DNA of 40,532 bases from Candidatus Sulfotelmatobacter sp. (GTDB lineage Bacteria > Acidobacteriota > Terriglobia > Terriglobales > Acidobacteriaceae), in NCBI GenBank assembly GCA_030038255.1, contig JASHPH010000095.1, positions 1-40,532 on the forward strand. The letters are read 5' to 3'. Every line of letters begins with the position of its first letter. The stretch's first letter is position 1. Made by a program: the position numbers and the translations under genes. Of the stretch, positions 4,914 to 38,061 are shown piece after piece. Below the pieces are notes generated by a model. It made no database searches. It was given only the letters and a program-made list of their open reading frames with translations, and had not been told where the DNA came from.

Positions 4914-4973
4914 CGGCGACCGCAACGCGCGCGTTTTGCGCTTTTGCACAATTTCATTTCTAATGCAGCCCAT

Positions 4974-6491: not shown

Positions 6492-6576
6492 CCTGATTTT
6501 GAAATTCCGATTGCAGAGTGGCGATTGAGTCCGCGGAGGGCTAATCGAAAATCTGCGATCAAATCGGCCATTCGCC

Positions 6577-7506: not shown

Positions 7507-7555
7507 TCGGCCTCTAAGGCAATTCTTACGACGGAGTGAGGCGAGTTCTCCGTTC

Positions 7556-9115: not shown

Positions 9116-9198
9116 AAACGGGAAATGGTACCACTTTGCAGCTTGAAGCAGACGTTTTTGCCCTTACGCTATCATTGGATTCGCACCTTGAGGTTCGC

Positions 9199-10314: not shown

Positions 10315-10353
10315 GGTTGGAAGAAACGGTGAAAAAATGAAAGGAGTGAAGTC

Positions 10354-10911: not shown

Positions 10912-10933
10912 CGAAGCTCTTCTTCGGACCATC

Positions 10934-11707: not shown

Positions 11708-11931
11708 CCTAGGCGACTATCCGGCGTCGCGGAGCAGGAAAATCTCGCTCTATCTCGGAACGTACCCTCTGCCATTGCCGTCTGCGCCGCGGAAGATCGG
11801 CATATGGGCCGTGTTGCACGAGGTCGATTCAGAGTATGCACAGTTATGGACCTCCACTTTCCTTTTGATCAATGGCCGGGCAGATGGTCGCTGGATGCGC
11901 TGCTCAACAGGAGAAAGGAGGCGAGTGAAGC

Positions 11932-14279: not shown

Positions 14280-14465
14280 AAGTCCATTCCTCCAGGATTG
14301 GTCGATCAGAGATTGAAAAGTACCAAGCAGGAGATCGTAGCACAACGGATGCTCACACTGCTTCTTAGGCGAAACAGTTAACTCGTCCTGGGCTCGCGCC
14401 GTGCGCTCCCAGCGAGATCCGGCGTCTCACTTGGCGCATTTCGGCCTCTCGGCGATAATTCCTGC

Positions 14466-15896: not shown

Positions 15897-15921
15897 ACTC
15901 AACCAGAGGAAGAAGACAACC

Positions 15922-16320
15922 ATGATTTCTGCCAAAGCCATCTGGACCGACCGCGAGCGTTATGTTGGCGAGGCGACTTCGCGCCATGCCATCGTGATGG
16001 ACACTGCTAGCGAAAAAACCGCGAACACGCCCATGGAATTGGTGCTGATCGCGCTCTGTGGTTGTACCGCCTCGGACGTCGCTGGCATCTTGCGCAAGAA
16101 GCGCGAACCGTTCACCCACCTCGAAGTTCACGCCGAAGGCGAGCGCGCAGAAGGCTATCCAGCCGTTTATACGGCGATCAAGCTGGTTTACCGCGTCAGT
16201 GGTAAAGTGGCAGCGAAAGCGATGGAAGACGCGGTGCGACTGTCGAAGGAAAAGTATTGCTCAGTTTCCGCTATGCTTGAAAAGACCGCCAAGATTACGG
16301 TCGAGATCGAATACTCATAG
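15922..16320 (+). CDS. OsmC/Ohr-family protein
   Basis: A 132-residue cytoplasmic protein. The two family cysteines are C48 (in ALCGCTASDV) and C113 (in KEKYCSVSAM); C46 is an extra cysteine beside the first. In Ohr/OsmC proteins this pair reduces organic hydroperoxides; the short YhfA-like subgroup, which this resembles, is of less certain function. The ATG at 15922 has GAGGAAG upstream; a longer open frame from 15703 lies inside the CDF gene and is rejected. It starts 25 bases after the CDF gene and is followed at 16 bases by a small redoxin, a plausible metal/redox stress unit. Confidence 0.9.
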   Translation: MISAKAIWTDRERYVGEATSRHAIVMDTASEKTANTPMELVLIALCGCTASDVAGILRKKREPFTHLEVHAEGERAEGYPAVYTAIKLVYRVSGKVAAKAMEDAVRLSKEKYCSVSAMLEKTAKITVEIEYS

Positions 16321-22321: not shown

Positions 22322-25621
<3,300 letters not shown>

Positions 25622-26757: not shown

Positions 26758-26820
26758 CTGGTGGGATGAGTTGGTTCTCGATTGCGTGATATCCGGGAGT
26801 ATGCTACAAGTCACGCGCCA

Positions 26821-27600
26821 ATGAGAAAGACTGCCGCCTCTATCCTGCTCCTGCTGCTCGCGGTCGCCCCCTCGCGGGCGCAGTCGGACTCGCCCCTGAC
26901 CATCTTTTGGCCGAACAGCGACAAGCCGGTCCTGAAGCTTACGTTTAGCCACTTCCAGCAGAAGGGAATTGTCAACAATGAGGGCGTCTATCTCTCTGAC
27001 GTCACCGCGCAGAACGCTTCCGATCAGGGGATGCCGCGCTCGGTCTTCACAGTATTCATCTCGGATAAGAACGGCGTGCGCATTGGACGCGCCCGGCTGC
27101 AGCTTCCGGAAATTCCGGCTTACCGCTCCGAGAAGGGGCAGCTGCAATTCTCCGCTGCAGGGACTCCTGCGGCGGTAGCGGTACTCGCCGGCAAAACCAT
27201 TCCACTGCGGATCATTTCCGTTCCTCCCGGCGCCAATTTCAAAGTCGATGGAGTGGATGAGGGCGTGACGCCCAAGGTTGTGGATTTCACAATTGGAAGC
27301 CACACGCTCGAGTTCAGCAAAAAGGGCTACGCGACAGGCAGCGCGCCCCTCGATGTCGGCGCCGACGAACTGCCGGGAGGCAGCGTCAGTTTTGAACTGG
27401 GCGGGCTATCGCAAGACGCTGTCGAGCTGCGGGACGGGACCACTGTGCTCGGCGAGGTGATGTCAATGTCCATGACGTCTGTGGTCGTGCGCGTAGAAGG
27501 CAAGGACCAGAAGTACGACCGCAATCAGGTGAAGAAGATCATTCTGGTCGAGCGAGTCACAACTCAGCTAACACAGACCCAGCCGACGAAGCCGAAATGA
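26821..27600 (+). CDS. exported PEGA-domain protein (copy 1)
   Basis: A 259-residue protein with a signal peptide (MRKTAASILLLLLAVAPSRAQ). The N-terminal part is a beta-rich domain (about 22-125). A PEGA repeat follows at about 137-180 (PPGANFKVDGVDEGVTPKVV ... SHTLEFSKKGY), then a small C-terminal beta-barrel-like segment (ELRDGTTVLGEV ... NQVKKIILVERV). PEGA domains are found on bacterial surface and periplasmic proteins and probably bind carbohydrate or protein. It is clearly paralogous to the next gene over its whole length. The ATG at 26821 is chosen over a TTG at 26782. Confidence 0.8.
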   Translation: MRKTAASILLLLLAVAPSRAQSDSPLTIFWPNSDKPVLKLTFSHFQQKGIVNNEGVYLSDVTAQNASDQGMPRSVFTVFISDKNGVRIGRARLQLPEIPAYRSEKGQLQFSAAGTPAAVAVLAGKTIPLRIISVPPGANFKVDGVDEGVTPKVVDFTIGSHTLEFSKKGYATGSAPLDVGADELPGGSVSFELGGLSQDAVELRDGTTVLGEVMSMSMTSVVVRVEGKDQKYDRNQVKKIILVERVTTQLTQTQPTKPK

Positions 27601-27633: not shown

Positions 27634-28452
27634 ATGAAGCGATACACAATCCTGTCTCTTGCATTGGTGATGCCTTGTCTTTTGCCTGTCGCTCTTGCCC
27701 CTGTCGTCCTTGCCAAAGACCAGGCCACGCAAGTACTCGTGTGGCCCGAGACGGGGACACCCGTTCTCCGCTTCACCTTCGGCAAGTTCAAGCAAATCGG
27801 ATCGCTGGGCGATCAGCACACATACATGACCGAGACATTGGTCGAGAATTTGTGGAGCAAGCCCATATCGAATGCGAATTTTGCGCTGTATTTATTTGAC
27901 GGCAACAAGGTACGGATCGGGGAGGCCACGATTACAGTCAACAACGTGGGACCCGGAGAGGCGGTGAAGTTTCAGACCACGATAGCTGCCGCAAGCCTGC
28001 CTGCCACTTTGTCAGTAGCACCGCGATCTTTGCCAAAAGAGCTTGGCCCATCCGCGCCTCCAAAAGTCATTTCCATCACCGTGAATACCGTGCCCCAAGG
28101 CGCAACCGCCAAACTTGATGGTACAGACGTCGGAACGACGCCGAAGATCGTGCAGGTTGGGGTGGGCAAGCACGTGCTCGAATTCAGCAAGGAGGGATTC
28201 AACCCGGGAACGTTTCCCTTCGAGATCGGCCCAGATGATGCCTCCGGCGGGAGCGTCAGCTTTGATCTTGGAACATCGGCGCACGACACGATCGAGCTCA
28301 GAGACGGCAGTGTGCTGAGCGGGGACCTGGTTTCAGTTTCTGGCAAGGAGGTCGTGGTCAAGGTTGCCGGCAGCCTTCAGCGGCTGAATCGCAACCAGGT
28401 GAAGCGCATTCTTTTCGTCGAACGCCAGCCGGCAGGTCAATCAAATCCCTGA
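27634..28452 (+). CDS. exported PEGA-domain protein (copy 2)
   Basis: A 272-residue paralogue of the preceding gene in the same order of domains: a signal peptide (residues 1-28, ending VVLA), a beta-rich N-terminal domain starting QVLVWPETGTPVLRFTF, PEGA (VPQGATAKLDGTDVGTTPKI ... HVLEFSKEGF) at about 151-193, and the C-terminal segment (ELRDGSVLSGDLVS ... NQVKRILFVERQ). It starts 33 bases after copy 1, so they are likely one transcript. The two differ at well over half of the positions by eye, so the duplication is old. Function unknown. Confidence 0.8.
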   Translation: MKRYTILSLALVMPCLLPVALAPVVLAKDQATQVLVWPETGTPVLRFTFGKFKQIGSLGDQHTYMTETLVENLWSKPISNANFALYLFDGNKVRIGEATITVNNVGPGEAVKFQTTIAAASLPATLSVAPRSLPKELGPSAPPKVISITVNTVPQGATAKLDGTDVGTTPKIVQVGVGKHVLEFSKEGFNPGTFPFEIGPDDASGGSVSFDLGTSAHDTIELRDGSVLSGDLVSVSGKEVVVKVAGSLQRLNRNQVKRILFVERQPAGQSNP

Positions 28453-28482: not shown

Positions 28483-28512
28483 TTGTGATTAGAATCATAA
28501 CCGGTGTATACT
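28483..28512 (+). promoter_or_regulatory. promoter of the TetR-family regulator gene
   Basis: TTGTGA (28483-28488) and TATACT (28507-28512) are 18 bases apart. A perfect palindrome begins 2 bases after the -10, so transcription should start inside the operator, as expected for autorepression. Confidence 0.6.
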
Positions 28513-28514
28513 GG

Positions 28515-28534
28515 ATTCGAACGAACGTTCGAAT
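28515..28534. promoter_or_regulatory. perfect palindromic operator for the TetR-family regulator
   Basis: ATTCGAACG and CGTTCGAAT are exact reverse complements separated by AA (20 bp in all). The core CGAACGAACGTTCG fits CNAACGNNCGTTNG, which is the site I recall for the Thermus phenylacetyl-CoA-responsive repressor PaaR. It lies between the -10 and the regulator start, so it most likely controls this regulator and perhaps the catabolic genes downstream. Confidence 0.75.
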
Positions 28535-28554
28535 TATCTCTCCGCCACGGGATT

Positions 28555-29229
28555 ATGGGGAATGCTGCAATAGCCACACGGGTCAAAGTACCGCGCCGTC
28601 ATCGGTCGGCGGCGGCCGAGCGCCCAGCGGCGGCACAACGCTATGACCGGCGCCTGGCCGAGATACTTGCGCACGCCGCTGAAGTCTTCTGCAAGAAGGG
28701 ATACGAAGGCGCATCGATGCGCGATCTGTCGCGCGCCAGTGGCATGTCGTTGGCCGGACTCTATTACTATTTTGAGTCCAAGGAACGCCTGCTCTACCTG
28801 ATCCAGAAGCACACTTTCGCCACCATCGTGCGGCAACTTAAGGCGCGCCTGGACGACGTGACCGACGCGGAAGAACGCATCCGCATTTTCATCCTCAATC
28901 ACCTGGAGTATTTTCTTTCCAATCAGGCCGCCATGAAGGTGCTTTCGCACGAAGCCGAGGTGCTGAAGAACGGCTTTGCTGCGGAAGTGGCGGCGCTCAA
29001 GCGCGAATACTACAAAATCTGCGTGGGCTTGCTCGACGATTTGAAGCGCGAGCGTGGCCTGCAGTTTTCCACGCGGCTGGCGGTTCTCAGTTTGTTCGGC
29101 ATGATGAACTGGATCTACACGTGGCACAATCCGCGCGTCGACGCTGATGCGGCCTCGATTGCGAATGAGATGGGCGATTTCTTCCTGAGAGGCGTGATGG
29201 CGGGTGGAAAGTCGCGCAAGGACCGATGA
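28555..29229 (+). CDS. TetR/AcrR-family transcriptional regulator
   Basis: A 224-residue DNA-binding repressor. After about 35 basic residues the helix-turn-helix lies at about residues 52-82 (GASMRDLSRASGMSLAGLYYYF), followed by the usual SKERLLYLI. The ligand-binding part is alpha-helical, and a Trp-containing helix (MNWIYTWHNP) lies near residues 183-192. I chose ATG 28555 because the earlier GTG at 28504 lies inside the promoter. The gene directly precedes crotonase, diiron oxygenase and hydroxybenzoyl-CoA reductase genes. Together with the PaaR-like operator, this suggests that an aromatic acyl-CoA releases repression; that is inference. Confidence 0.92.
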   Translation: MGNAAIATRVKVPRRHRSAAAERPAAAQRYDRRLAEILAHAAEVFCKKGYEGASMRDLSRASGMSLAGLYYYFESKERLLYLIQKHTFATIVRQLKARLDDVTDAEERIRIFILNHLEYFLSNQAAMKVLSHEAEVLKNGFAAEVAALKREYYKICVGLLDDLKRERGLQFSTRLAVLSLFGMMNWIYTWHNPRVDADAASIANEMGDFFLRGVMAGGKSRKDR

Positions 29230-29306
29230 ATGACAGAGGGCAATCACGAGCATCGCGAAAGGTGCGTACGGGAAGGGCACGGCCGTAAGAGGGTGAGCTT
29301 TGAACG

Positions 29307-29358
29307 GGTGCGGCTTTTAGCCGCGCCAAAAGGAACACAGAGATTTGGGCTTTAGCCT
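29307..29358. repeat. two-hairpin intergenic repeat-like element
   Basis: Stem 1 pairs 29307-29315 with 29319-29327 (GGTGCGGCT, loop TTT, AGCCGCGCC; one T-G pair). A second small stem GGCT/AGCC lies at 29348-29357. The element fills the 169-bp gap between the regulator and the first crotonase. It looks like the short interspersed elements with paired GCGGCT-AGCCGC and GGGCTTTAGCC stems that I associate with Acidobacteriota genomes. It could attenuate readthrough but lacks a T-run. Confidence 0.55.
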
Positions 29359-29398
29359 CTGAGGGCGAGCCTGCAAAATTCAGAACAGGAGCACTCCG

Positions 29399-30220
29399 AT
29401 GGCAACCACAATGCAGCCGGCGACCGGCGAAACGACGAAGCAACTCATCAACTACCGCACCGACGGCGGCGTCGCCGTCATCGAGATGTGCGATCCGCCG
29501 GCCAACACCTACACCTATGAAATGAACCGGCAACTCGACGACGCCATCCTCAAGGCGCGCATGGCCAATGACGTTTACGTCATCGTACTGACCGGGGCGG
29601 GAGATAAGTTTTTCTCCGCGGGCGCGAACATCAAGATGCTTTCGAGCGTCGATCCCACGTTCAAGTACTATTTCTGCCTGCATGCCAACGAAACGCTGTT
29701 GCGTCTCGAGCACACGCCCAAGCTGGTGATTGCGGCTATCAACGGCCACTGCGTGGGCGGCGGGCTGGAAATCGCGATGGCAGCCGACCTCCGCATCGCG
29801 CGCAAAGACGCGGGCAAGATCGGCCTGCCGGAAGTCAACCTGGGTGTATTGCCCGGCACGGGCGGCACGCAGCGGCTTTCCCGCATTGTGGGCAAGAGCA
29901 AAGCCATCGAGCTCATGGTCACGGGAAACACGTTCTCGTTCGAAGAGGCGCAGGAATTCGGAATCGTCAATGACATCTTCGAGCGCGACGGCTTCATGGA
30001 AAACATCATGGAATACGCCAAGCAGTTCTGCCCGCCCAACAAGGCGTCGAAAGCCGTGGGACGCATCAAGCGCGCGGTGCAGACCGGCTGGGAGATTCCG
30101 CTGGAATCGGCGCTGGCTGTGGAGCGCGAGAATCAGCAGTTGCTCTTCCAGAGCGAGGACGCGAAAGAAGGTCTGGCCGCCTACGTGGAGAAGCGGCCAG
30201 CAACGTTTAAGGCGAAATGA
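29399..30220 (+). CDS. enoyl-CoA hydratase/isomerase (crotonase) family protein
   Basis: A 273-residue cytoplasmic crotonase-fold enzyme. The oxyanion-hole segments are FFSAGANIKML (about 71-81) and INGHCVGGGLEIAMAAD. Both hydratase glutamates are present: E124 and E144 (in GLPEVNLGVLPGTGGTQRL), so a hydratase reaction on an enoyl-CoA is likely. AGGAG lies 7 bases before the ATG. It is the first enzyme gene of the aromatic-CoA cluster. Its substrate may be a ring-cleavage or beta-oxidation intermediate, which the sequence alone cannot settle. Confidence 0.92.
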   Translation: MATTMQPATGETTKQLINYRTDGGVAVIEMCDPPANTYTYEMNRQLDDAILKARMANDVYVIVLTGAGDKFFSAGANIKMLSSVDPTFKYYFCLHANETLLRLEHTPKLVIAAINGHCVGGGLEIAMAADLRIARKDAGKIGLPEVNLGVLPGTGGTQRLSRIVGKSKAIELMVTGNTFSFEEAQEFGIVNDIFERDGFMENIMEYAKQFCPPNKASKAVGRIKRAVQTGWEIPLESALAVERENQQLLFQSEDAKEGLAAYVEKRPATFKAK

Positions 30221-30244
30221 CCTCTTACGAGCTGGGAAAGCGAG

Positions 30245-30598
30245 ATGACATGGTCATGGAAGCTCGGGATGTTGGCATATTTCGCGCTGGCGATTGCTGG
30301 CGTGACCCTCTTCCCTAAGCTGCGTCGTCTAGTACAAATTCGTAGGACTGAGTCTTGGTCCGAGGTACAAGGCAAGGTTGTGAGCATCAATGTGATCGAT
30401 CATGTGGCGGAGGGAGCGACGGCGGAAATAGGGTATGCATATAGCATGGGCGGGACCTCTTATGGAGGTTTCGTCCGGCGCAACTTCCTCGACGTGCAAC
30501 ATGCGTGGGATTTTGCGCACGGCTGCCGCGACATGAAGATACTCGTCCATTACAAGCCCAATCAGCCGCAGACTTCGGTTGTTTGGCGATCGATTTAA
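30245..30598 (+). CDS. small membrane protein, DUF3592-like
   Basis: A 117-residue protein with one N-terminal membrane segment (about residues 7-24) followed by a basic stretch and a small beta-rich domain: WSEVQGKVVSINV, AEIGYAYSMGGTSYGG and MKILVHYKPNQPQTSVV. That pattern (W..V.G.V, Y.Y...G..Y.G, V.Y.P..P..S) is typical of DUF3592 proteins. No catalytic residues are seen. It sits between the crotonase and the oxygenase with short gaps (24 and 9 bases), so it is probably co-transcribed, but a link to the pathway is not obvious. Confidence 0.65.
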   Translation: MTWSWKLGMLAYFALAIAGVTLFPKLRRLVQIRRTESWSEVQGKVVSINVIDHVAEGATAEIGYAYSMGGTSYGGFVRRNFLDVQHAWDFAHGCRDMKILVHYKPNQPQTSVVWRSI

Positions 30599-30607
30599 AG
30601 AGGATTT

Positions 30608-31783
30608 ATGCCCGGAAAAGTACCCAAACTCGGAACGTTCAGCGACTGGGTCGGTCTGTTTAACGATTGGCGCAAGGAAATCGGCGTCAACACCGACGAT
30701 ATTGAAGCCTTCCATTTCGACACGCTCTACGGCGCCATCGACACGGAAGAGATCGAGTTCGGTTCGTACAAGGGCCGCCGCAAGTGGGAGAACCTGCGCC
30801 AGATTCCGACCCAGCAGATGCGCGACGCCCTCATGAACATGATCGTGTACCAGGGCGACACGGAATTCGCCAGTGTCGAGCAGCAGCGCAATCTGTTCGA
30901 GATGGCACCCACCGACTGGGACCGCAAGGCGCTCACCCGCGTCATGATCGAAGAGATGCGCCACGGCTGGCAGATGTGTGCGTTGCTGATGGACCACTTC
31001 GGCTACTCGGGCAAAGTCGAAGCGCAGAAAATGCTCGAGCGGCGGGCCTTTGAGAACAAGCGCCTGCTGGGAGCGTTCAACGTCGACGTCGACAACTGGA
31101 TGGATTTCTTCACCTACACCGATTTCGTCGACCGCGACGGTAAATTCCAGCTGCAGATGCTCAAGTATTCCGCCTTCGCACCGCTCGGCCGTTCCATGTC
31201 GTACATGCTGCGCGAAGAGGCGTTTCACATGGGCACGGGCAACGACGGTTTGCGGCGCATCGTGGAAGCCGGCGTCGTACCCACGTGGCTGATCCAGAAG
31301 TATCTCAACAAGTGGATTTCGAGCTCCTACGATCTGTTCGGCACCGATCATTCTTCGTCCGCCCACTGGGCCTACGTCTGGGGCGTAAAGGGACGCTACG
31401 ACGAGCCGAAGAACGACAAGGCCCCGGACCTCGATGATCTGAACGACTACAACCGCAATCTTTACCGTGAGGAAGTCGCAGGCCTTATCGAACGCTTCAA
31501 CAGCGCGCTGAAACCGGGCGAACCGAAGCTGTACGCGCCGCACATCAAGTTCAATCGCGCGATCGGGAAATATGCCGGCCAGAAATTTCACGCGCAGACG
31601 GGCGAACCGCTCGACGACCGCGCATACGAACAGCATTTGAAGGATTACATGCCGTCGGCGGAGGACAAGGAGCTACTGCTCGACATCATCGCCACCGAGA
31701 AGAAGTGGATCAGCGAGAAAACGGGCGCCCGTGATCCTCTGGCAACGATTGGGGAAGTGCGCAAGTCGGCAATCAACTTGTAG
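30608..31783 (+). CDS. BoxB-like class I diiron oxygenase (benzoyl-CoA 2,3-epoxidase / PaaA family)
   Basis: A 391-residue ferritin-like diiron enzyme. Six candidate iron ligands are present at the BoxB spacing: E86 (GDTEFASVEQQR), E116 and H119 (EEMRHGW), D175 (FVDRDGKFQL), E204 and H207 (LREEAFHMG). These spacings match the BoxB ligands I recall, whereas phenylacetyl-CoA oxygenase PaaA differs more in surrounding sequence. BoxB epoxidises benzoyl-CoA with O2 and electrons from BoxA. Azoarcus-type BoxB is about 470 residues; this protein is shorter, mainly at the N-terminus. No BoxA, BoxC or PaaBCE gene is in the window, so the reductase must be elsewhere or different. AGGA precedes the ATG. 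Confidence 0.85.
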   Translation: MPGKVPKLGTFSDWVGLFNDWRKEIGVNTDDIEAFHFDTLYGAIDTEEIEFGSYKGRRKWENLRQIPTQQMRDALMNMIVYQGDTEFASVEQQRNLFEMAPTDWDRKALTRVMIEEMRHGWQMCALLMDHFGYSGKVEAQKMLERRAFENKRLLGAFNVDVDNWMDFFTYTDFVDRDGKFQLQMLKYSAFAPLGRSMSYMLREEAFHMGTGNDGLRRIVEAGVVPTWLIQKYLNKWISSSYDLFGTDHSSSAHWAYVWGVKGRYDEPKNDKAPDLDDLNDYNRNLYREEVAGLIERFNSALKPGEPKLYAPHIKFNRAIGKYAGQKFHAQTGEPLDDRAYEQHLKDYMPSAEDKELLLDIIATEKKWISEKTGARDPLATIGEVRKSAINL

Positions 31784-31813
31784 GGATTTTGCGAGGGCGA
31801 TCGCGGAGCATTT

Positions 31814-32596
31814 ATGGCGTCGGTAGCATCACAACTCACTCGCATTGCACTGGAAATCAGTCCGCCAGTCGCACGTATTACTCTCCGAAATGCGCCGCTT
31901 AACGTAATCGACCTGCCAATGATGGAGGATCTAACGCTGTCGTTGACAGAGATCGAAGCGCAGCGGGAAATTTCAGCCATCATTTTGAGCGGGGAGGGGA
32001 AAGCATTCTCCGCGGGCGTGGATGTCGCGGCCCACACTCCGGACAAAGTCGAAGGGATGCTGTCGAAGTTTCACGGCGTCATCCGGGCAATAGTCGGAAC
32101 GAAGAAAGTGACCATCGCCGCCGTTCACGGCCCTTGCCTGGGCGGCGGTGCTGAACTGGCGATGGTCTGCGATATTGTCTTCACGGCCGAATCGGCGCAA
32201 TGGGGATTTCCGGAGATCAAGCTCGGCTGCTATCCGCCCGTGGCATGCACTGCGTTGGCGGCGTTGGTGGGGCAGAAACGGGCGGCGGAGCTGATTCTGA
32301 CCGGGCGCACAATCAGTGGCAGAGAAGCTGCAGAGATCGGTTTGGCGAGTCGAGCTGTTGGTGGGACGGAGTTAAGCTCAGCCCTCGACGACTGCTTGGG
32401 GCGCCTTCAGAAGCTGAGTCCGGCGGCGCTTTCGATCACGAAGAAGGCTTCGTACGCGTGGGATTCCATGCATTTCGATAAGGGCCTGGCCCGGGCCGAG
32501 AGGATCTATCTCGAAGAACTGATGCAGACCGCCGATGCGCAGGAAGGCATCCGCGCATTCATGGAAAAGCGCGAGCCAAAGTGGGCAGAGAAATAG
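31814..32596 (+). CDS. crotonase-family protein resembling cyclohexa-1,5-diene-1-carbonyl-CoA hydratase (Dch)
   Basis: A 260-residue crotonase. Both catalytic-position glutamates are kept: E114 (CLGGGAELAMVCD) and E134 (WGFPEIKLGCYPP). Beyond the general fold it shares Dch-type features I recognise: N.ID...M near residues 30-37, the stretch VDVAAHTPDKVEGMLSKFHG, and the C-terminal ERIYLEELMQTADAQEGIRA followed by FMEKR. Dch hydrates the dienoyl-CoA made by benzoyl-CoA reductase in anaerobic degradation. GGAG lies 5 bases before the ATG. Its place after an oxygenase gene means its true substrate may be a different ring-derived CoA ester. Confidence 0.85.
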   Translation: MASVASQLTRIALEISPPVARITLRNAPLNVIDLPMMEDLTLSLTEIEAQREISAIILSGEGKAFSAGVDVAAHTPDKVEGMLSKFHGVIRAIVGTKKVTIAAVHGPCLGGGAELAMVCDIVFTAESAQWGFPEIKLGCYPPVACTALAALVGQKRAAELILTGRTISGREAAEIGLASRAVGGTELSSALDDCLGRLQKLSPAALSITKKASYAWDSMHFDKGLARAERIYLEELMQTADAQEGIRAFMEKREPKWAEK

Positions 32597-32619
32597 CTGC
32601 GACGGCGAGTTACGAAACG

Positions 32620-32943
32620 ATGGATTACAAAATCAATCCGGAAGATGTAAAGGCCAAGCTCGATGCGGGAGAAGCCTTTACTTTGCTGGACGTCCGCGAG
32701 CCGCGGGAGCTCGAGATCGCCTGGATTGACGGAGCGAAGCTGATGCCGATGGGCGACGTGCCGTCGCGGGCGCATCAGGAGCTCGATCCCGACGAGCCGA
32801 TCGTCGTCCTCTGTCACCACGGCGTACGGTCCATGAATGTAACCGTTTGGCTGCGCCAGCAAGGATTCGAAAGAGCGCGGTCGATGCGCGGCGGCATCGA
32901 TGCCTGGTCGCGGCGCGTGGATCCGAGTGTGCCGGTGTATTGA
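32620..32943 (+). CDS. single-domain rhodanese (sulfurtransferase-like)
   Basis: A 107-residue cytoplasmic protein with one rhodanese domain: LLDVREPRELEIAWIDGA, then the catalytic cysteine C65 in VVLCHHGVRSM, and the ending GGIDAWSRRVDPSVPVY. It carries sulfane sulfur as a persulfide. ATG 32620 is used; the open frame from 32581 overlaps the Dch-like gene. It lies directly before the molybdenum-hydroxylase-type genes, so it could supply sulfur to their molybdenum cofactor or iron-sulfur clusters, which is inference. Confidence 0.9.
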   Translation: MDYKINPEDVKAKLDAGEAFTLLDVREPRELEIAWIDGAKLMPMGDVPSRAHQELDPDEPIVVLCHHGVRSMNVTVWLRQQGFERARSMRGGIDAWSRRVDPSVPVY

Positions 32944-32952
32944 AGCTTCCAG

Positions 32953-32980
32953 CTGCTAGCTCCTAGCTACGAGCCAGCAG
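32953..32980. terminator. 10-bp hairpin between the rhodanese gene and hcrC
   Basis: CTGCTAGCTC (32953-32962) pairs with GAGCCAGCAG (32971-32980) with one mismatch and an 8-base loop; a short T-run (ATTTTT) follows about 10 bases later. This could be a partial terminator or processing site inside the cluster, or a repeat remnant (TAGCT is repeated). The T-run is too far away for a standard intrinsic terminator. Confidence 0.4.
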
Positions 32981-33018
32981 AGTTGAGATTTTTGGTCAGG
33001 AGTTAGCGCCTGTCTTTC

Positions 33019-33510
33019 ATGAAAAAGGAACTCATCGAACTGCGCGTCAACGGCCGGCTGCATGAACTCGCCGTCGAGCCCAACGCCGTACTGCTTGACC
33101 TCTTACGGCAGGATCTCCAGCTTACTGGCTCGAAGCGCGGCTGTGACGATTCTTCCTGCGGCGCCTGTACGGTCCTGGTTGACGGTGTCGCCATGATGTC
33201 GTGCACTCTGCTCGCCGCCAGCTGCGAGGGACAGGAGATTACGACGATCGAGGGCGTCAGCGAGCACGGCAGCCTGGCAGCCATTCAGAAAGCGTATGGC
33301 GATTGGGGCGGCGCGCAGTGCGGGTACTGCACGCCCGGTTTCATCATGACGCTGAAATCGCTGCTGGCGGAAAATCCAGACCCGTCCGAAGAAGACGTTC
33401 GCGTCGGGTTGAGCAGCAATCTTTGCCGCTGCACCGGCTACAACCAGATGTACGAGGCTATCCGCTCGGCGATCGAGGCAGAACGGAAGGGACTGGCGGC
33501 AGCGAAATGA
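33019..33510 (+). CDS. hcrC: 4-hydroxybenzoyl-CoA reductase, gamma subunit (2x[2Fe-2S])
   Basis: A 163-residue small subunit of a xanthine-oxidase-family enzyme. The plant-type [2Fe-2S] cysteines are C42, C47, C50 and C62 (GCDDSSCGAC...SC). The second cluster uses C101, C104, C136 and C138 (QCGYCTPG ... NLCRCTGY). It passes electrons between the FAD/[4Fe-4S] subunit and the molybdopterin subunit. By itself it could belong to several molybdenum hydroxylases; the assignment to hydroxybenzoyl-CoA reductase rests on its partner HcrB. Confidence 0.9.
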   Translation: MKKELIELRVNGRLHELAVEPNAVLLDLLRQDLQLTGSKRGCDDSSCGACTVLVDGVAMMSCTLLAASCEGQEITTIEGVSEHGSLAAIQKAYGDWGGAQCGYCTPGFIMTLKSLLAENPDPSEEDVRVGLSSNLCRCTGYNQMYEAIRSAIEAERKGLAAAK

Positions 33511-33530
33511 GAGCTGCCATTGCGGAATTG

Positions 33531-33580
33531 CTGTCATTCCGAGCGAACCGAGGACCCTGCTTTTCCTAGGGGAGTGCGGA
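33531..33580. repeat. interspersed-repeat-like sequence between hcrC and hcrA
   Basis: The 78-bp gap between hcrC and hcrA contains a stretch beginning CTGTCATTCCGAGCGAACCG at 33531, then a short purine-rich tract to about 33580. I recognise the first part as a common short interspersed element of bacterial genomes (TGTCATTCCGAGCGAAGCGAGG type). It sits inside an operon without breaking a gene. Its copy number cannot be checked here. Confidence 0.5.
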
Positions 33581-33588
33581 AACCACGA

Positions 33589-36180
33589 ATGAATACCGGC
33601 TTCTCAATCATCGGCAAGCCTACCGCCATGGTCGACGCGGCGGAAAAGACCACCGGCGCCGGCAAATATACCGACGACTTCAGTCTTCCAGGCATGTTGA
33701 TCGGAAAGATTCTGCATTCCCCGTATCCGCACGCCCGCATCAAGCGAATTGACGCGTCTCGCGCCGCGGAACTCGACGGTGTCGTCTGCGTGGTCGTCGG
33801 CAAAGACGCGCCGAAAACCTATGGCATCCTCCCGGTGGGCCACGATGAATATCCATTAGCTCTCGACAAAGTGCGCTACGTGGGCGACAACGTCGCCTGC
33901 GTCGTCGCGATCTCTGAAGCCATTGCCGAGAAGGCTCTCGAACTCATCGACGTCGACTATGAGGTCCTCCCAGCCTACTTTGATCCCGAAGATTCGATGA
34001 AGGCCGACACCGACCTCATCCACGACAACAAGCCGCACAACATCGAGAAGGACTACCACCACGTCTTCGGCGATCCCGACAAGGGTTTCGCAGAGGCCGA
34101 TCACGTTGTTGAAGCGCGCTTCATCGCCAACGAAGTCACCCACGCGGCGATGGAACCGCACTCCACGCTGGCTTCGTTCGAAATCGATCCGCACACCGGC
34201 AAGCTCGGACGCCTCACGGTCTGGTCTTCCACGCAGGTCCCGTACTACCTGCAGCACAAGCTCTCGCTCGTGCTCGAAATGCCGATGCAGCAGATTCGTG
34301 TGATCAAGCCGCTGGTCGGCGGCGGATTCGGTGGCAAGAGCGAGGTGATTCCGCTCGAGATCATCGCCGCCGTGGCTGCACGCAAGGCCAAAGCTCCGGT
34401 GAAAATCACTTATACAAGGGAAGAGGTCTTTTGGGCGCATCGGGGACGGCCGCGCACCATCATCGATCTGAAAACCGGCGTCAAGAACGACGGCCGCATC
34501 ACATCTGTGAAGGCGCGCGTGGTGCAGGATGGCGGTGCGTACTGCTCGTACGGCGTGGTGACAATTCTCTATTCCGGCGCGCTGCTCGGCGCGCTCTACG
34601 ACATTCCCAACATCCAGTACGACGGATACCGCGTCCTGACCAATAAGCCGGCCTGCGGTGCCATGCGCGGACACGGCACCGTGAACGTGCGCTTTGCTTT
34701 TGAATCGCAACTCGACGAGCTGGCCGCCAAGATCGGATTGGATCCGGCTGAAATTCGCCGCCGCAACCTGCTGCAACCGCCCTGCATCACGGTCAACGGA
34801 CTGCGCGTTCAGAGTTACGGGTTGCCCGAGTGCATCGAGAAAACCGTCGAGCGATCCGGCTGGAAGGAGCGCAAGGGCAAACTGCCTAAGGGACGCGGCC
34901 TCGGCATCGCCTGCAGCCATTACGTCAGCGGCGCCGCCAATTCGATCATTCGCTCCGACATGCCGCACTCGACTGTCAATATCAAGATTGATCGCGATGG
35001 TGGCGTGGTCGTCTACACCGGCGCGTCGGAAATCGGGCAAGGTTCCGACACGATGACCGCGCAGATCGCCGCGGAAACCCTCGGCTGCTCGCTGTCTCGC
35101 GTGCGTGTGGTTGCCGCCGACACAGACCTGACTCCGATTGACATCGGCTCATACTCCAGTCGCGTCACGTTCATGGCCGGGAACGCGACTATGCGCGCAG
35201 CCGAAGAAGTCAAGAAACTAATCGCTGCCGCCGCGGCGAAAAAGATGAGTTGTGCCGTGGATGATCTGCTGTTCCGCGACGACACGGTTTCCAGAAAAAA
35301 TGGCAATGTGGAGACGAACGTATTCGTCCGGCCCGCCGAGCAGAGTTCGTCCGAGAGAAGCTGGGCGGCAGCGTCCGTTTCCGGCCACGTCGAAGGCCAG
35401 ATTCTGCGCGGATCCTTGCAGCAGAAGCGCAAAGATGAAGGCCCGAAGGATTCGATGACTTTCGAAGAAGCCGTCGTTGCAGCGATTGACTTTCACGGCG
35501 CGCTCACCGGCAGCGGCTCTTACGCACCGCCGCAGGAAGCACGCGGCGGCAAGCACAAGGGCGCGGGTGTCGGGCCATCGCCGGCGTATTCCTACTCGGC
35601 GCAGGTAGTCGAAGTGAGTGTTGACGAAGAAACTGGCGAAGTCACCGTGCACAAGGTCTGGGCGGCGCACGATTGCGGACGAGCGCTGAATCCAGTGTCC
35701 GTCGAGGGACAGATTATCGGTTCGGTATGGATGGGCATGGGGCAGGCACTCACTGAAGAAATGGTGTGGAAAGACGGCTTGCTGATGAACCCCGGGTTTT
35801 TGGAATATCGCAGCCCGTCGTCCGTCGAGTCGCCCGCCGTCGAGCCGATCATCGTCGAGAGCATCGATCCTGAAGGCCCGTTTGGCGCGAAGGAATGCAG
35901 CGAAGGCTCGCTCGCCGCAACGATTCCCGCGATCGCCAACGCAATCTACGACGCCGTGGGCGTGCGGCTCCATGAATCGCCATTCACTCCTGAGAGGGTT
36001 CTCGCGGCGCTCCGCGCGAAAAAGAATGCGAAGCCATTGAATTTGACAGAAGGTATTGACCCAACCGCGCCCACCTGTTTCCGCGAGCACGGCGGTTCGC
36101 TTTGGTTCAAGGGGAAGGGGCCGAAGCGGCACGCGCTTGATCCGTCGCGGCGGGAAGTTCCCGGAGGGAGCGCGAATTGA
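33589..36180 (+). CDS. hcrA: 4-hydroxybenzoyl-CoA reductase, alpha subunit (molybdopterin-binding)
   Basis: An 863-residue catalytic subunit of the xanthine oxidase family. Family marks: YTDDFSLPGMLIGKILHSPYPHARI at the start (split about residues 28-52), PLVGGGFGGKSE, ACGAMRGHGTVNVRFAFE, EIGQGSDTMTAQIAAETLG, and the active-site glutamate E772 in FGAKECSEGS. The stretch DLTPIDIGSYSSRVTFMAGN resembles the hydroxybenzoyl-CoA reductase type. It removes the para-hydroxyl of 4-hydroxybenzoyl-CoA, giving benzoyl-CoA. It is about 90 residues longer than the Thauera enzyme as I recall it, with extra sequence near 570-620 and a C-terminal tail. I chose ATG 33589; the open frame from 33520 runs through the repeat. 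It overlaps hcrB by 4 bases. Confidence 0.88.
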   Translation: MNTGFSIIGKPTAMVDAAEKTTGAGKYTDDFSLPGMLIGKILHSPYPHARIKRIDASRAAELDGVVCVVVGKDAPKTYGILPVGHDEYPLALDKVRYVGDNVACVVAISEAIAEKALELIDVDYEVLPAYFDPEDSMKADTDLIHDNKPHNIEKDYHHVFGDPDKGFAEADHVVEARFIANEVTHAAMEPHSTLASFEIDPHTGKLGRLTVWSSTQVPYYLQHKLSLVLEMPMQQIRVIKPLVGGGFGGKSEVIPLEIIAAVAARKAKAPVKITYTREEVFWAHRGRPRTIIDLKTGVKNDGRITSVKARVVQDGGAYCSYGVVTILYSGALLGALYDIPNIQYDGYRVLTNKPACGAMRGHGTVNVRFAFESQLDELAAKIGLDPAEIRRRNLLQPPCITVNGLRVQSYGLPECIEKTVERSGWKERKGKLPKGRGLGIACSHYVSGAANSIIRSDMPHSTVNIKIDRDGGVVVYTGASEIGQGSDTMTAQIAAETLGCSLSRVRVVAADTDLTPIDIGSYSSRVTFMAGNATMRAAEEVKKLIAAAAAKKMSCAVDDLLFRDDTVSRKNGNVETNVFVRPAEQSSSERSWAAASVSGHVEGQILRGSLQQKRKDEGPKDSMTFEEAVVAAIDFHGALTGSGSYAPPQEARGGKHKGAGVGPSPAYSYSAQVVEVSVDEETGEVTVHKVWAAHDCGRALNPVSVEGQIIGSVWMGMGQALTEEMVWKDGLLMNPGFLEYRSPSSVESPAVEPIIVESIDPEGPFGAKECSEGSLAATIPAIANAIYDAVGVRLHESPFTPERVLAALRAKKNAKPLNLTEGIDPTAPTCFREHGGSLWFKGKGPKRHALDPSRREVPGGSAN

Positions 36181-37175
36181 GCCTGCCGCCGTTCAAAGTC
36201 CTGCGACCGCGATCGATCGATGAAGCGATCGGCCATCTGGACAAGCACGCGGCGAATATTCGCGTGCTGGCCGGTGGAACCGATCTGATTCCCTCCATGC
36301 GGCAAAGACTCTTCGAGCCAGAATATGTCCTTGACCTCCGCCGAATCCCCCAGCTCCGTGGCATCAAGCAGCGGCCCGACGGCGGCGTCGAAATCGGCGC
36401 GTTGACCACGCTGCGTACGATCGAGCGCTCTGAGTTTCTCCGCCGGCATTATCCGGTATTGACGGAAGCGGCTGCTACGGTCGCTTCTCCGGTGCTGCGC
36501 AACATGGGAACGATTGGCGGCAACATTTGCCTCGACACGCGTTGCCTCTGGTACAACCAGTCGCTTACGTGGCGCAAGGGCTGCGGATTCTGCATCAAAA
36601 AAGACGGCGATCTCTGCCACGTAGCTCCGGGCGGAACCAAGTGCTGGGCGGCGTTCTCGGGCGACACTCCTCCAGCACTGCTCTGCCTGAAGGCCGAAAT
36701 CGAAATGGCCGGCCCCTCGGGCGTTCGACGCATCGCTCTGCAGGACTTCTACACGGGATTGGGCGATAGCTACCGAAAACTTCAGTCGAATGAACTCGTC
36801 ACTCGCGTGTTCCTTCCACGAGAAACTGCCAACTACACCGGCGTATACCGCAAGCTGCGCGTGCGCGGATCGATCGACTACCCGCTAGCCGGCGTCGCTG
36901 TCGTGATGAAGCGAGCTTCGAACGGGAACGGCGTTGGCCACATCTCCGATGCGCGGATCGGAATCACCGCAGTAAATCCCGCGCCGTTACTTGTGAAGGG
37001 CGCAACAGAGCTGCTGGCAGGAAAGGAGCTAAACGACGCTCTCGCGGAGGCTGTAGGCGATCTCGCGGCGAAAACCGCAAAGCCATTGACCACGTCGGCA
37101 CTGACGCCCGAATACCGCCGCGAGATGATTCGCGTCTTCACCAGGCGTGCGATCCTTGCCGCGGCGTCCAACTAA
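36177..37175 (+). CDS. hcrB: 4-hydroxybenzoyl-CoA reductase, beta subunit (FAD, extra [4Fe-4S])
   Basis: A 332-residue FAD subunit, starting at TTG in a TTGA overlap with hcrA, with a strong GGAGGGAG 6 bases upstream. The FAD-binding motifs are LAGGTDLIPSMR (about 31-42) and NMGTIGGNICLDTRC (109-123). The diagnostic feature is an inserted loop at about 120-158 with C118, C123, C136, C139, C147 and C156. The four at 123, 139, 147 and 156 match, one residue shifted, the [4Fe-4S] ligands I recall for Thauera HcrB (122, 138, 146, 155). Ordinary xanthine dehydrogenases lack this loop, so it identifies the enzyme as the reductase type. Confidence 0.92.
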   Translation: MSLPPFKVLRPRSIDEAIGHLDKHAANIRVLAGGTDLIPSMRQRLFEPEYVLDLRRIPQLRGIKQRPDGGVEIGALTTLRTIERSEFLRRHYPVLTEAAATVASPVLRNMGTIGGNICLDTRCLWYNQSLTWRKGCGFCIKKDGDLCHVAPGGTKCWAAFSGDTPPALLCLKAEIEMAGPSGVRRIALQDFYTGLGDSYRKLQSNELVTRVFLPRETANYTGVYRKLRVRGSIDYPLAGVAVVMKRASNGNGVGHISDARIGITAVNPAPLLVKGATELLAGKELNDALAEAVGDLAAKTAKPLTTSALTPEYRREMIRVFTRRAILAAASN

Positions 37176-37218
37176 TTCGTCTGGTATTCTTCTCCGGGCC
37201 CTTAAGCACTGGCCACGA

Positions 37219-38061
37219 ATGATCACTGACTGCCACATCCACATCCAGCCCATGGAAATGTTCAAGCCCCATGCGCTGGAACTCATGAAGGTGAAGCGTC
37301 CGAACTTCGATCAGATTGTCGAATTCTGCCGTTCACCCCGCGCCTTCCTCAAGTTCATGGACGCGAGCGGCATCGACCGCGCCATGCTCATCAATTACGT
37401 CGCGCCCGAGGTCATCGGCTTCACCAATGGCGTGAACCAGTTCGTAGCCGACTACGTGAAAGAAGATCCCAAGCGGTTACTCTCCTGCGGAAGTCTGCAT
37501 CCCCGGCACACTACGAACGTGCTCGCCGATGTGGAGCAGATTCTTCGTCTGGGGATCAGGATGATCAAAATTCATCCGCCGCACCAGTTGCTGTTTCCAA
37601 ACGAATACCTGAGCGGGGCGAAAGAACTCGAGATCATCTACCGGGCGGCCGAGGCGAACGGCGTGCCGATCATGTTCCACAGCGGCACTTCCATTTTTCC
37701 CGGCGCTCGCAACAAATACGGTGACCCGATTTATGTCGATGATGTGGCCGTGGACTTTCCGAAGCTAAGAATTCTGCTGGCCCACGGCGGCCGCCCCTTG
37801 TGGATGCACACAGCGTTTTTCCTCGTGCGGCGCCATCCGAATGTCTATCTTGACATCAGCGGCATCCCGCCCAAGACACTGCTCAACTATTTCCCGCGCC
37901 TCGAAGAGATCGCGAAAAAGACTTTGTTCGGCACGGATTGGCCGGGGCCCGGCGTGCCCGACATCCGAAAGAATCTCGAGGAATTTCGGGCGCTTCCGTT
38001 CAGCGAACACGTGAAGCAGCAGATTCTGAGCAAGACAGCACTGACCATCTGGCCGGCTTGA
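37219..38061 (+). CDS. amidohydrolase-2-family TIM-barrel hydrolase/decarboxylase
   Basis: A 280-residue cytoplasmic metal enzyme. The metal site is H6-I-H8 at the very start (ITDCHIHI), a His in PIMFHSGTS, a His in LLAHGGRP and the Asp of FGTDWPGPG. This set is typical of the ACMSD/amidohydrolase-2 family, which includes decarboxylases and hydrolases of ring-derived acids. It follows hcrB by 43 bases in the same orientation and probably ends the aromatic cluster. A role in ring-fission product hydrolysis or decarboxylation is plausible but unproven. I chose ATG 37219; the open frame from 37147 overlaps hcrB. Confidence 0.85.
   Translation: MITDCHIHIQPMEMFKPHALELMKVKRPNFDQIVEFCRSPRAFLKFMDASGIDRAMLINYVAPEVIGFTNGVNQFVADYVKEDPKRLLSCGSLHPRHTTNVLADVEQILRLGIRMIKIHPPHQLLFPNEYLSGAKELEIIYRAAEANGVPIMFHSGTSIFPGARNKYGDPIYVDDVAVDFPKLRILLAHGGRPLWMHTAFFLVRRHPNVYLDISGIPPKTLLNYFPRLEEIAKKTLFGTDWPGPGVPDIRKNLEEFRALPFSEHVKQQILSKTALTIWPA

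Follow-up and report, generated by a model that had tools for sequence, protein, structure and literature searches.

Among described systems, the box pathway of Azoarcus/Aromatoleum and Burkholderia (boxABC, boxD, and boxR) lies close to the operon reported here, with which it has in common the diiron ligands and most pocket residues of its epoxidase, an adjacent crotonase, and, in about half of the loci related to ours, an aldehyde dehydrogenase. The operon differs from the box pathway in having an epoxidase candidate of 391 aa (BoxBL; canonical BoxB has about 475 aa), a single-domain crotonase (ECH1), a TetR-family regulator in place of BoxR, and no BoxA in the genomes searched, and it adds a second crotonase (ECH2), a rhodanese-domain protein, and an amidohydrolase (AmdH). 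HcrABC of Thauera aromatica resembles the reductase genes of the operon in its three subunits, in an HcrA that exceeds the curated cut-off, and in the cysteines of the HcrB loop, whereas here Hcr is tied to an epoxidase-type operon, and HcrB and HcrC fall below their cut-offs. According to the available text of PMC9765128, Aromatoleum aromaticum EbN1 converts 3-(4-hydroxyphenyl)propanoate to benzoyl-CoA by a presumptive reductive dehydroxylation during anoxic and oxic growth, and this Hcr-type dehydroxylation is presumed to feed both the bcr and the box routes; dehydroxylation to benzoyl-CoA followed by box with oxygen is the likeness to our operon, but EbN1 belongs to another phylum and, in the same text, uses separate anaerobic and aerobic clusters rather than one operon with hcr. 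The phenylacetyl-CoA epoxidase pathway (PaaABCDE, PaaG, and PaaZ) follows a similar logic of CoA-ester epoxide, crotonase, and aldehyde dehydrogenase, and ECH1 homologues of Thermus and Haladaptatus adjoin Paa-type genes; the Paa epoxidase is, however, a multi-subunit enzyme. Finally, ECH2 resembles Dch (cyclohexa-1,5-diene-1-carbonyl-CoA hydratase), although it scores well below the Dch cut-off.

Results

The window, i.e. the whole stretch of DNA analyzed, comprises 40,532 nucleotides of Candidatus Sulfotelmatobacter sp. (GCA_030038255.1, contig JASHPH010000095.1). As shown in Table 1, the ten ORFs of the cluster (28483..38061) share the + strand; several of them overlap, and no gap exceeds 170 bp. 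Their positions and family profile matches confirm the gene set that had been proposed from the DNA letters and their translations. The true starts of HcrA and the amidohydrolase are likely to be about 33589 and 37219, respectively, estimates for which the translations were the sole basis. The gene for the DUF3592-like protein occupies the place taken by an aldehyde dehydrogenase gene in roughly half of the related loci.

Table 1. The ten genes of the cluster, with positions in the window and the profile matches on which each name is based
Product	Position	Strand	Evidence
TetR-family regulator	28504..29229	+	PF00440 and PF17932 both exceed their cut-offs; precedes ECH1 in many related loci
ECH1, single-domain crotonase, candidate BoxC substitute	29399..30220	+	TIGR03222 match, 89.2 bits; tree
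DUF3592-like small protein	30245..30598	+	PF12158, 26.3 bits (cut-off 25.3)
BoxBL, compact BoxB-like diiron protein	30608..31783	+	TIGR03225, 229.6 bits (cut-off 499.1)
ECH2, Dch-like crotonase	31814..32596	+	TIGR03189, 151.6 bits (cut-off 292.5)
Rhodanese-domain protein	32581..32943	+	PF00581
HcrC, [2Fe-2S] subunit of 4-hydroxybenzoyl-CoA reductase	33019..33510	+	TIGR03193, 177.3 bits (cut-off 257.8); Fer2_2
HcrA, molybdenum subunit	33520..36180	+	TIGR03194, 1041.9 bits (over cut-off 994.55)
HcrB, FAD subunit	36177..37175	+	TIGR03195, 323.7 bits (cut-off 404.55)
AmdH, PF04909 (Amidohydro_2) metal-dependent hydrolase	37219..38061 (ORF from 37147)	+	PF04909, 115.2 bits

The operon was found again in Ca. 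Sulfotelmatobacter and in other Terriglobia; isolate designations like palsa, bog, fen, and peat soil are frequent among the named relatives. We assessed its conservation in 63 loci with enough upstream DNA, drawn from the best 80 of at least 550 related stretches, a set biased to close relatives. All 63 have an ECH1 match upstream of the BoxBL gene, at a distance of no more than 3.3 kb; because this order is kept throughout, a chance arrangement can be ruled out. An aldehyde dehydrogenase gene, which is lacking in the window and which the original prediction had overlooked in an otherwise correct gene list, lies within the locus in 33 of the 63. The co-occurrence of hcr, AmdH, and aldehyde dehydrogenase genes was counted in the 47 loci with 3.3 kb of upstream and 6 kb of downstream DNA, 30 of which have Hcr as a partner of BoxBL. 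Since 14 of the 47 keep AmdH without hcr, the hcr genes are optional and dispensable to the operon. The rhodanese gene persists in these 14 hcr-less loci, and we rejected the view of its product as a mere Hcr helper. Further, in one locus (L143), ECH1, the aldehyde dehydrogenase, ECH2, the rhodanese protein, Hcr, and AmdH are kept, and an extra crotonase replaces BoxBL; we rejected it as a p-hydroxycinnamoyl-CoA hydratase/lyase, since it is PaaG-like, and the genome concerned has canonical boxBC at another site. ECH1 and AmdH are therefore not tied to BoxBL.

BoxBL aligns with BoxB (PDB 3per, E 1.1e-50) yet stays below the curated BoxB cut-off, which the BoxB of a class relative (L031), our positive control, exceeds with 726.9 bits. 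Using the iron ligand list of BoxB given in the available text of PMC5489048, we found all six ligands (E120, E150, H153, D211, E240, and H243) in every one of 11 BoxBL and 3 BoxB rows, as had been claimed for the window's protein. Five of seven pocket residues are kept in the window's BoxBL (Q116, T119, S123, F193, and F203), and Q116, T119, S123, and F193, which in BoxB bind or orient the benzoyl group (PMC5489048, available text), are identical in all 14 aligned rows. The other two positions are changed consistently, with F206 replaced by Tyr (Y170 in the window) and T210 by Val or Ile (V174 in the window) in 11/11 BoxBL rows. Two BoxB segments are missing from the shorter BoxBL. In the tree, five BoxB rows form a branch of their own (support 100/100), outside which the 12 BoxBL rows fall as a clade or a grade, and, with classes assigned by identity, none of the 73 genomes that gave a match, out of 297, combines BoxBL with a BoxB-type match. 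To PaaA, BoxBL is only remotely related (TIGR02156, 40.4 bits; cut-off 280). We conclude that BoxBL is, at the level of sequence, a compact type distinct from the canonical BoxB proteins, and its ligands and five pocket residues support the proposed BoxB-type epoxidase, making it a probable benzoyl-CoA epoxidase. Its substrate may nevertheless differ, because BoxBL lies below the BoxB cut-off and carries the changes at F206 and T210. The plasmids with a BoxBL match number 22, and none of them is from Geobacillus, the genus sought as a precedent through PDB 2ppy.

Neither BoxA nor BoxC exceeds its cut-off in the window's genome. BoxA does so in 0 of 61 genomes, including the 3 with BoxC over cut-off, which are those carrying canonical-type BoxB. 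BoxC proper was defined by two crotonase domains, a length of about 550 aa, and a TIGR03222 score over 712.3. ECH1 (273 aa) falls outside this definition, matching positions 42-229 of 548 only, and is the best of the five BoxC matches in the genome. In the tree, ECH1 joins the BoxC N-terminal domains, which sit on a long branch, and PDB 2ppy (support 84/71), and together with Thermus and Haladaptatus homologues they make up one side of a branch supported by 100/98. An FCxxxNET motif is common to ECH1 and 4/4 BoxC N-terminal domains, and that domain is the only catalytic one of BoxC (PMC4498308, available text). The tree, the motif, and the profile match all favor the earlier suggestion that a crotonase replaces BoxC, and ECH1 is the likely substitute. 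The second crotonase, ECH2, falls in a nine-row clade with Dch and Dch-like rows (support 100/97), in agreement with its predicted Dch-like character. It is a paralogue, 37% identical to the bcr-linked Dch on another contig (C84) of the genome, and that closer Dch (252.9 bits against 151.6) led us to reject ECH2 as the sole Dch of the genome.

The assignment of HcrCAB is strong. HcrA matches chain A of PDB 1rm6, HcrABC of Thauera aromatica, with E 7e-247, and an HcrA over the cut-off is present in 29 of 61 genomes. HcrB matches chain B with E 2.9e-63 and shares with it five cysteines in the inserted loop; in 4-hydroxybenzoyl-CoA reductase, four loop cysteines bind a [4Fe-4S] cluster. Hcr as part of the route has held up as an assignment but not as an obligatory step, given the 14 AmdH-bearing loci without it. 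Canonical box genes also adjoin hcr: in L031, BoxC and BoxB are followed by hcrC, hcrA, and hcrB (its HcrB keeps four of the loop cysteines), with a BoxR-type regulator adjacent. The HcrA next to canonical boxBC in G058 stays below its cut-off (826.1 of 994.55).

The amidohydrolase had been thought to act on a later product. The gene is present as described, but in the actinomycete Nonomuraea, an AmdH match begins about 15 bp after the boxC stop, behind boxB-boxC, and because of this position AmdH may be part of the oxygen-dependent route proper. AmdH matches and Paa-type genes also occur in the same stretch in Thermus and one Haladaptatus, and, of 129 matched plasmid records, 3 of the 6 examined show epoxidase-type genes in the stretch. 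The closest aldehyde dehydrogenase copies elsewhere in the window's genome (G000) are a full-length one with 56% identity and a fragment with 58%, and we rejected relocation of the linked gene within this genome. No reductase gene was found linked to the operon; in locus L027, a NuoF-like gene located behind BoxBL is a candidate for the electron donor.

The window's genome also carries a bcrCBAD-had-oah-dch cluster on C84 (L131), and Hcr may therefore feed two routes there. The had gene product exceeds its cut-off (429.6 over 338.65), those of bcrC (339.3 of 421.15), bcrB (317.3 of 486.55), and dch (cut-off 292.5) do not, and oah was scored via its homologue in G007 only (550.6; cut-off 464.45). 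We set contamination aside as the source of this contig, although it could still apply to this MAG, since G007 (99% complete) carries these genes too, with identities of 82-92%. Six bcr stretches (L131-L136, from G000, G007, G011, G041, G055, and G058) gave no match to hcr, BoxBL, or AmdH. Among 13 genomes tested, an HGD-D protein was found in none of seven, six of which carry Hcr and BoxBL (G012, G014, G019, G023, G036, and G039) and the seventh (G034) BoxBL with HcrA not over the cut-off; an AFOR protein was found in none of the 13. A benzoate-CoA ligase family protein over the cut-off was missing in 5 of the 13, three of them (G014, G019, and G039) from the group with both Hcr and BoxBL. 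The bcr genes of the window's own genome correct the original prediction, whose oxygen-dependent route still suits the six Hcr/BoxBL relatives without HGD-D or AFOR.

Discussion

Our main reading, to which we give a probability of roughly 65%, is that the operon encodes a box-type, oxygen-dependent benzoyl-CoA route with an optional Hcr entry module. The substrates and products that follow are predicted from the sequences. HcrCAB, by its strong homology, would reductively dehydroxylate 4-hydroxybenzoyl-CoA to benzoyl-CoA, which BoxBL, judging from its residues, would epoxidize, probably at the 2,3 position, with electrons from something other than a recognizable BoxA. ECH1, a single-domain protein akin to the catalytic N-terminal domain of BoxC, would open the epoxide or oxepin hydrolytically, and the semialdehyde would be oxidized in a BoxD-like manner by the aldehyde dehydrogenase of the relatives or, here, by an unlinked paralogue. 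ECH2 might hydrate an unsaturated CoA intermediate, and AmdH might hydrolyze or deformylate the ring-opening product. Without oxygen, benzoyl-CoA in the window's genome could also enter the bcr cluster. A wider proposal is tentative, and we would sooner bet against it than for it: that a benzoyl-CoA epoxide pathway lacking BoxA and BoxC is widespread in Terriglobia, with ring opening split between ECH1 and AmdH, with this pair also serving other aryl-CoA epoxidases (Thermus and haloarchaea), and with Hcr as a plug-in. AmdH would then be responsible for the second hydrolysis or for formate release, and the plug-in would admit 4-hydroxybenzoyl-CoA.

The rival explanations are compatible with one another, and our estimates for them are not mutually exclusive. 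We regard it as unlikely, if well worth considering, that BoxBL epoxidizes or hydroxylates a different aryl-CoA in an operon whose logic is otherwise unchanged. The altered F206 and T210, the shorter protein with its two lost segments, and the occurrence of hcr-less operons agree with this; the four invariant benzoyl-contacting residues, the frequent partnership with Hcr, whose known product is benzoyl-CoA, and the hcr genes beside canonical boxB-boxC in L031 speak for benzoyl-CoA itself. Slightly less probable to us is a phenylpropanoid (coumarate-type) operon, in which ECH1, the aldehyde dehydrogenase, and AmdH would trim the p-coumaroyl-CoA side chain, yielding 4-hydroxybenzoate or the corresponding CoA ester, Hcr would lead on to benzoyl-CoA, and only BoxBL would be concerned with ring opening. 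Coumarate gene sets with amidohydrolases (CouO and PhdC) are known, which counts for this view, as do the 3-hydroxyacyl-CoA dehydrogenase gene after AmdH in L120 and the ECH1-aldehyde dehydrogenase-Hcr-AmdH set without BoxBL in L143. Further, aldehyde dehydrogenase and Hcr tend to co-occur (21 of 47 loci have both, 13 neither, 11 Hcr alone, and 2 the dehydrogenase alone), but this link is not significant after correction for relatedness (median p 0.5, the pairs being too few to reach 0.05). Also in favor, EbN1 uses a TetR repressor to regulate its genes for 3-(4-hydroxyphenyl)propanoate (PMC9765128, available text). Against the coumarate view stand the placement of ECH1 with the BoxC N-terminal domains, the persistence of AmdH without hcr and its position behind boxB-boxC in Nonomuraea, the absence of the p-hydroxycinnamoyl-CoA hydratase/lyase model from the best 25 of 73 ECH1 matches, and locus L027, in which aldehyde dehydrogenase (39%), ECH1, and BoxBL are adjacent, with no hcr or AmdH match within the stretch.

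That the main role of the operon is to supply the anaerobic route through benzoyl-CoA reductase, with Hcr and the Dch-like ECH2 as anaerobic enzymes and BoxBL and ECH1 only handling oxygen or side products, seems to us improbable by a wide measure. The cluster on C84 and the Hcr-like genes inside a bcr/had/oah/dch-like cluster of G042 (L146) fit it, but it does not sit well with the relatives that have Hcr and BoxBL and lack HGD-D, with the absence of AFOR from the genomes tested, with a bcr-linked Dch distinct from ECH2, or with bcr stretches of six genomes that show no hcr match. For the oxygen-dependent route, the elements first proposed (Hcr, a BoxB-type protein, a Dch-like crotonase, a BoxC substitute, and gene order) have stood, and neither a loss of order in relatives nor placement among non-aromatic enzymes was seen, ECH1 grouping with BoxC and ECH2 with Dch; the bcr genes of the window's genome call for a correction, and so does the breadth of the novelty claim. 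That claim, of no described pathway with this set, was too strong, as Hcr is presumed to feed bcr and box in EbN1 (PMC9765128, available text) and hcrCAB follows boxC-boxB in L031; no description of the compact set was found. Hcr feeding box is, then, not new in principle, and the compact enzyme set of the operon is a new version of it. Our literature search found no report joining BoxB and either benzoyl-CoA or 4-hydroxybenzoyl-CoA reductase with Acidobacteria, none on benzoyl-CoA in Sulfotelmatobacter, and nothing pairing 4-hydroxybenzoyl-CoA reductase with the "box pathway" by name.

In soils and peat, where Terriglobia are found, aromatic acids that stem from lignin serve as a carbon source. 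Standard BoxABC models miss this route, because BoxBL lies below the cut-off and no BoxA or BoxC exceeds its own. If our reading is true, these acidobacteria would have a defined path by which to use benzoate and 4-hydroxybenzoate, a smaller epoxidase system would be on offer, and attention would be drawn to AmdH as a candidate hydrolase that is also found beside boxB-boxC in an actinomycete.

The operon and its BoxB-like protein

The ten genes of the operon, which include two crotonases (ECH1 and ECH2), a compact BoxB-like diiron protein (BoxBL), the 4-hydroxybenzoyl-CoA reductase genes (hcrCAB) and a PF04909 hydrolase (AmdH), were all recovered on a single strand, as the original prediction had it, and no gap between them exceeds 170 bp. 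Gene content, gene order, metal ligands and kinship are established directly by the sequence; the substrates and products of all the enzymes, the electron donor, the oxygen dependence of the route and the roles of ECH2, AmdH, the rhodanese and DUF3592 are putative. In the profile search, HcrA scored over its curated cut-off and HcrB and HcrC scored below theirs; HcrB aligned near end to end with 1rm6_B and retained five inserted-loop cysteines. Within the window, no linked reductase turned up. The neighboring genes are given in the table; the PEGA-like repeat in the tandem ORFs was recognized by eye, and this pair had matches in only some relatives.

BoxBL scored 229.6 bits against the BoxB cut-off of 499.1. 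When aligned to Azoarcus BoxB (3per) and 13 relatives, it retained six of six iron ligands, which bears out the earlier reading that all ligands are present, and it differed from BoxB by two missing internal segments and a shorter N-terminal part. Seven residues (Q116, T119, S123, F193, F203, F206, and T210) are named for the BoxB pocket in PMC5489048; the window protein retains the first five of those listed there, with Tyr replacing F206 and Val replacing T210. Tyr at 206, Val or Ile at 210, and Phe for P121 were found in 11/11 BoxBL rows versus 0/3 canonical rows. In a tree rooted on four PaaA-type rows, five canonical BoxB rows formed one branch (100/100), and all 12 BoxBL rows lay outside it. 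Since the root is weak (69/87) and the BoxBL rows do not make up one side of a branch, BoxBL may be either a sister group of canonical BoxB or an ancestral grade.

Coordinates of the operon's neighbors and of related loci (L, DNA stretches)
Feature	Location	Coordinates
carB, then dapA-like gene and two paralogous ORFs (one flank)	window	22322-25621 (carB)
Tandem paralogous ORFs, PEGA-like, upstream of operon	window	26782-27600; 27634-28452
Citrate synthase (other flank)	window	
Whole operon, PaaG-like crotonase replacing BoxBL	L143 (genome G055)	5687-16206
Canonical boxC-boxB, then hcrC-hcrA-(dehydratase-like gene)-hcrB; BoxR-type regulator adjoining	L031	3878-13377
Class I benzoyl-CoA reductase cluster bcrCBAD-had-oah-dch	L131 (contig C84, window's genome)	2867-9956
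CoA-transferase-like genes (pcaJ/pcaI family, below cut-off) flanking ECH2	L063	11142-12047; 12853-13860
NuoF-like protein and second, PaaA-like diiron protein directly 3' of BoxBL	L027	3545-5709
AmdH homologue of Haladaptatus pallidirubidus	L153	8962-9846

The two crotonases

Of all proteins in the genome, ECH1 matches BoxC best, over positions 42-229 of 548 only; according to PMC4498308, catalysis by BoxC is confined to its N-terminal domain. In a tree of 37 rows, which excluded BoxC C-terminal halves and held 13 general crotonases (a small sample), ECH1, Geobacillus 2ppy, four BoxC N-terminal domains and the Thermus and Haladaptatus homologues fell on one side of a branch (100/98). Support was 84/71 for this grouping without the Thermus and Haladaptatus rows, with the BoxC N-terminal domains on a long branch. 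The motif FCxxxNET was present in the window's ECH1, L022, L120, L143, L144, 2ppy, and 4/4 BoxC N-terminal domains and absent from L027, L034 (last letter different), Thermus, and two Haladaptatus rows. By sequence, ECH1 is a candidate ring opener. In the same tree, ECH2 and the Dch rows formed one clade (100/97).

Conservation and modularity of the operon

We compared the best 80 of at least 550 named loci, which lean to close relatives. Within this sample, the gene order that was to be checked in relatives proved conserved: ECH1 lay at most 3.3 kb upstream of BoxBL in 63/63 loci with enough DNA, with an aldehyde dehydrogenase (ALDH) gene in between in 33 of the 63, and ECH2 lay at most 4 kb downstream in 56/61. 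Of these best 80 loci, 47 extend 10 kb or more downstream; among them, HcrA occurred in 30, AmdH in 39 and both in 25; 14 had AmdH without Hcr, five Hcr without AmdH, and three neither. In the 14 hcr-less AmdH loci, AmdH comes next after a rhodanese match, with an offset of -22 to +339 bp. The Hcr label requires at least eight changes on a BoxBL tree of 46 rows, and on strongly supported branches six independent pairs differ in Hcr presence, so losses or gains of hcr occurred several times. ALDH tends to co-occur with Hcr across loci, not significantly on the tree.

L143, where a PaaG-like crotonase takes the position of BoxBL in an otherwise whole operon, shows that the link of ECH1, ALDH, ECH2, and AmdH to BoxBL is not obligate; the genome of L143 has an HGD-D pair and canonical boxBC at other sites. 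Two CoA-transferase-like genes flank ECH2, each in 9/25 loci examined (L063, at 46.6 and 36.8 bits, below the cut-offs; one or both also in L068, L070, L073, L100, L102, L103, L104, L107, and L108). Either an activating CoA transferase or an IpdAB-type ring hydrolase may be encoded by the pair. Further additions, all below cut-off, were a hotdog-type protein (L102), a 3-hydroxyacyl-CoA dehydrogenase 3' of AmdH (L120; 426.4 of 429) and the NuoF-like protein of L027.

AmdH had matches in 129 plasmid records, of which six were inspected; gene functions in these records come solely from annotation. Nonomuraea gerenzanensis carries BoxB (57% to L031), BoxC (53%) and an AmdH homologue (32%) in that order, the AmdH match beginning ∼15 bp past the boxC stop. 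On Thermus thermophilus pHB5018c, Paa-type genes have TetR, ALDH and an ECH1 homologue (41%) as neighbors; a benzoate-CoA ligase family protein, a thiolase and AmdH (30%) lie ∼8 to 11 kb from ECH1. Haladaptatus pallidirubidus has an ECH1 homologue (40%), Paa-type genes, AmdH (40%) and a benzoate-CoA ligase family protein together; an in-frame stop interrupts the matched frame of this AmdH homologue, and the annotation splits it into two pieces. Haladaptatus salinisoli was selected on account of its ECH1 homologue (42%); the stretch there contains Paa-type genes, and AmdH had no match in it. No epoxidase-type genes were found in the stretches seen around the AmdH homologues of Haloarcula (45%), Haloterrigena (42%), and Gemmatirosa (49%; its record carries no annotation).

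Distribution and related genes elsewhere

The window is the whole of contig C234 in a genome of 423 contigs (completeness 94.8%, contamination 5.2%). Among its named relatives, the best are MAGs of Candidatus Sulfotelmatobacter and other Acidobacteriaceae/Terriglobia. In this genome and 60 relatives, a match occurred in 51/61, which a reading of the match table divides into 44 with BoxBL, three with canonical-type BoxB (G051, G055, and G058) and four with weak matches (25-27% identity). BoxBL was found in 36/37 genomes of the genus, several as pieces (one of 52 residues); the sole exception is 76% complete. Among 297 genomes of the phylum (≥90% completeness requested), a match with an E value of at most 1e-30 was present in 73: 14 were BoxBL, defined as ≥50% identity, and 59, at 34-49%, were read as canonical or other BoxB types. 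No genome of the 73 had both, with classes set by identity. Genus g20 of the same family had 13 genomes without a match among those listed, with 204 further matchless genomes beyond them. Matches at 34-37% (e.g. G341, G353, G074, and G120) may represent a third BoxB-like type in other Acidobacteriota.

The genome-wide checks suggested by the original prediction detected neither BoxA (0/61 genomes) nor BoxC (only G051, G055, and G058) over cut-off in the window's genome, an absence established within MAG limits. HcrA was over cut-off in 29/61. A benzoate-CoA ligase family protein (590 bits, over cut-off) is encoded on C22, unlinked, and such proteins were over cut-off in 8/13 genomes (absent from G014, G019, G034, G039, and G041). 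Benzoyl-CoA reductase genes do occur in the window's genome: on C84, bcrC and bcrB both fall below cut-off and had passes it, alongside oah, dch and genes for two activase-type subunits. The same set is present in G007, and BcrC of G011 is over cut-off. HGD-D pairs were found in 6/13 genomes, including the window's, and class II reductase (AFOR) in 0/13. Hcr and BoxBL occur without an HGD-D protein in G012, G014, G019, G023, G036, and G039 (HcrA of the last at 915.8, below cut-off); G034 has BoxBL and neither an HGD-D protein nor HcrA over cut-off. The bcr stretches L131-L136 had no Hcr, BoxBL, or AmdH matches. Hcr-like genes lie inside a bcr/had/oah/dch-like cluster in L146; in L145, the visible stretch has Hcr-like genes and none of the other operon genes.

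Relation to known pathways

The claim that no described pathway has this set fails in principle, because Hcr-type dehydroxylation followed by box is presumed for Aromatoleum aromaticum (PMC9765128) and L031 joins canonical boxC-boxB to hcr genes. L031, from a class relative without BoxA over cut-off, has HcrA below cut-off and four loop cysteines retained in HcrB. No description of the operon was found in the open-access literature searched. As far as literature searches go, BoxBL with a single-domain ECH1, ECH2 and AmdH, without BoxA, is an undescribed variant of the box type. In G051, G055, and G058, BoxC passes its cut-off and BoxB is of the canonical type, with no BoxA over cut-off. Replacement of BoxA may be more widespread in Acidobacteriota.
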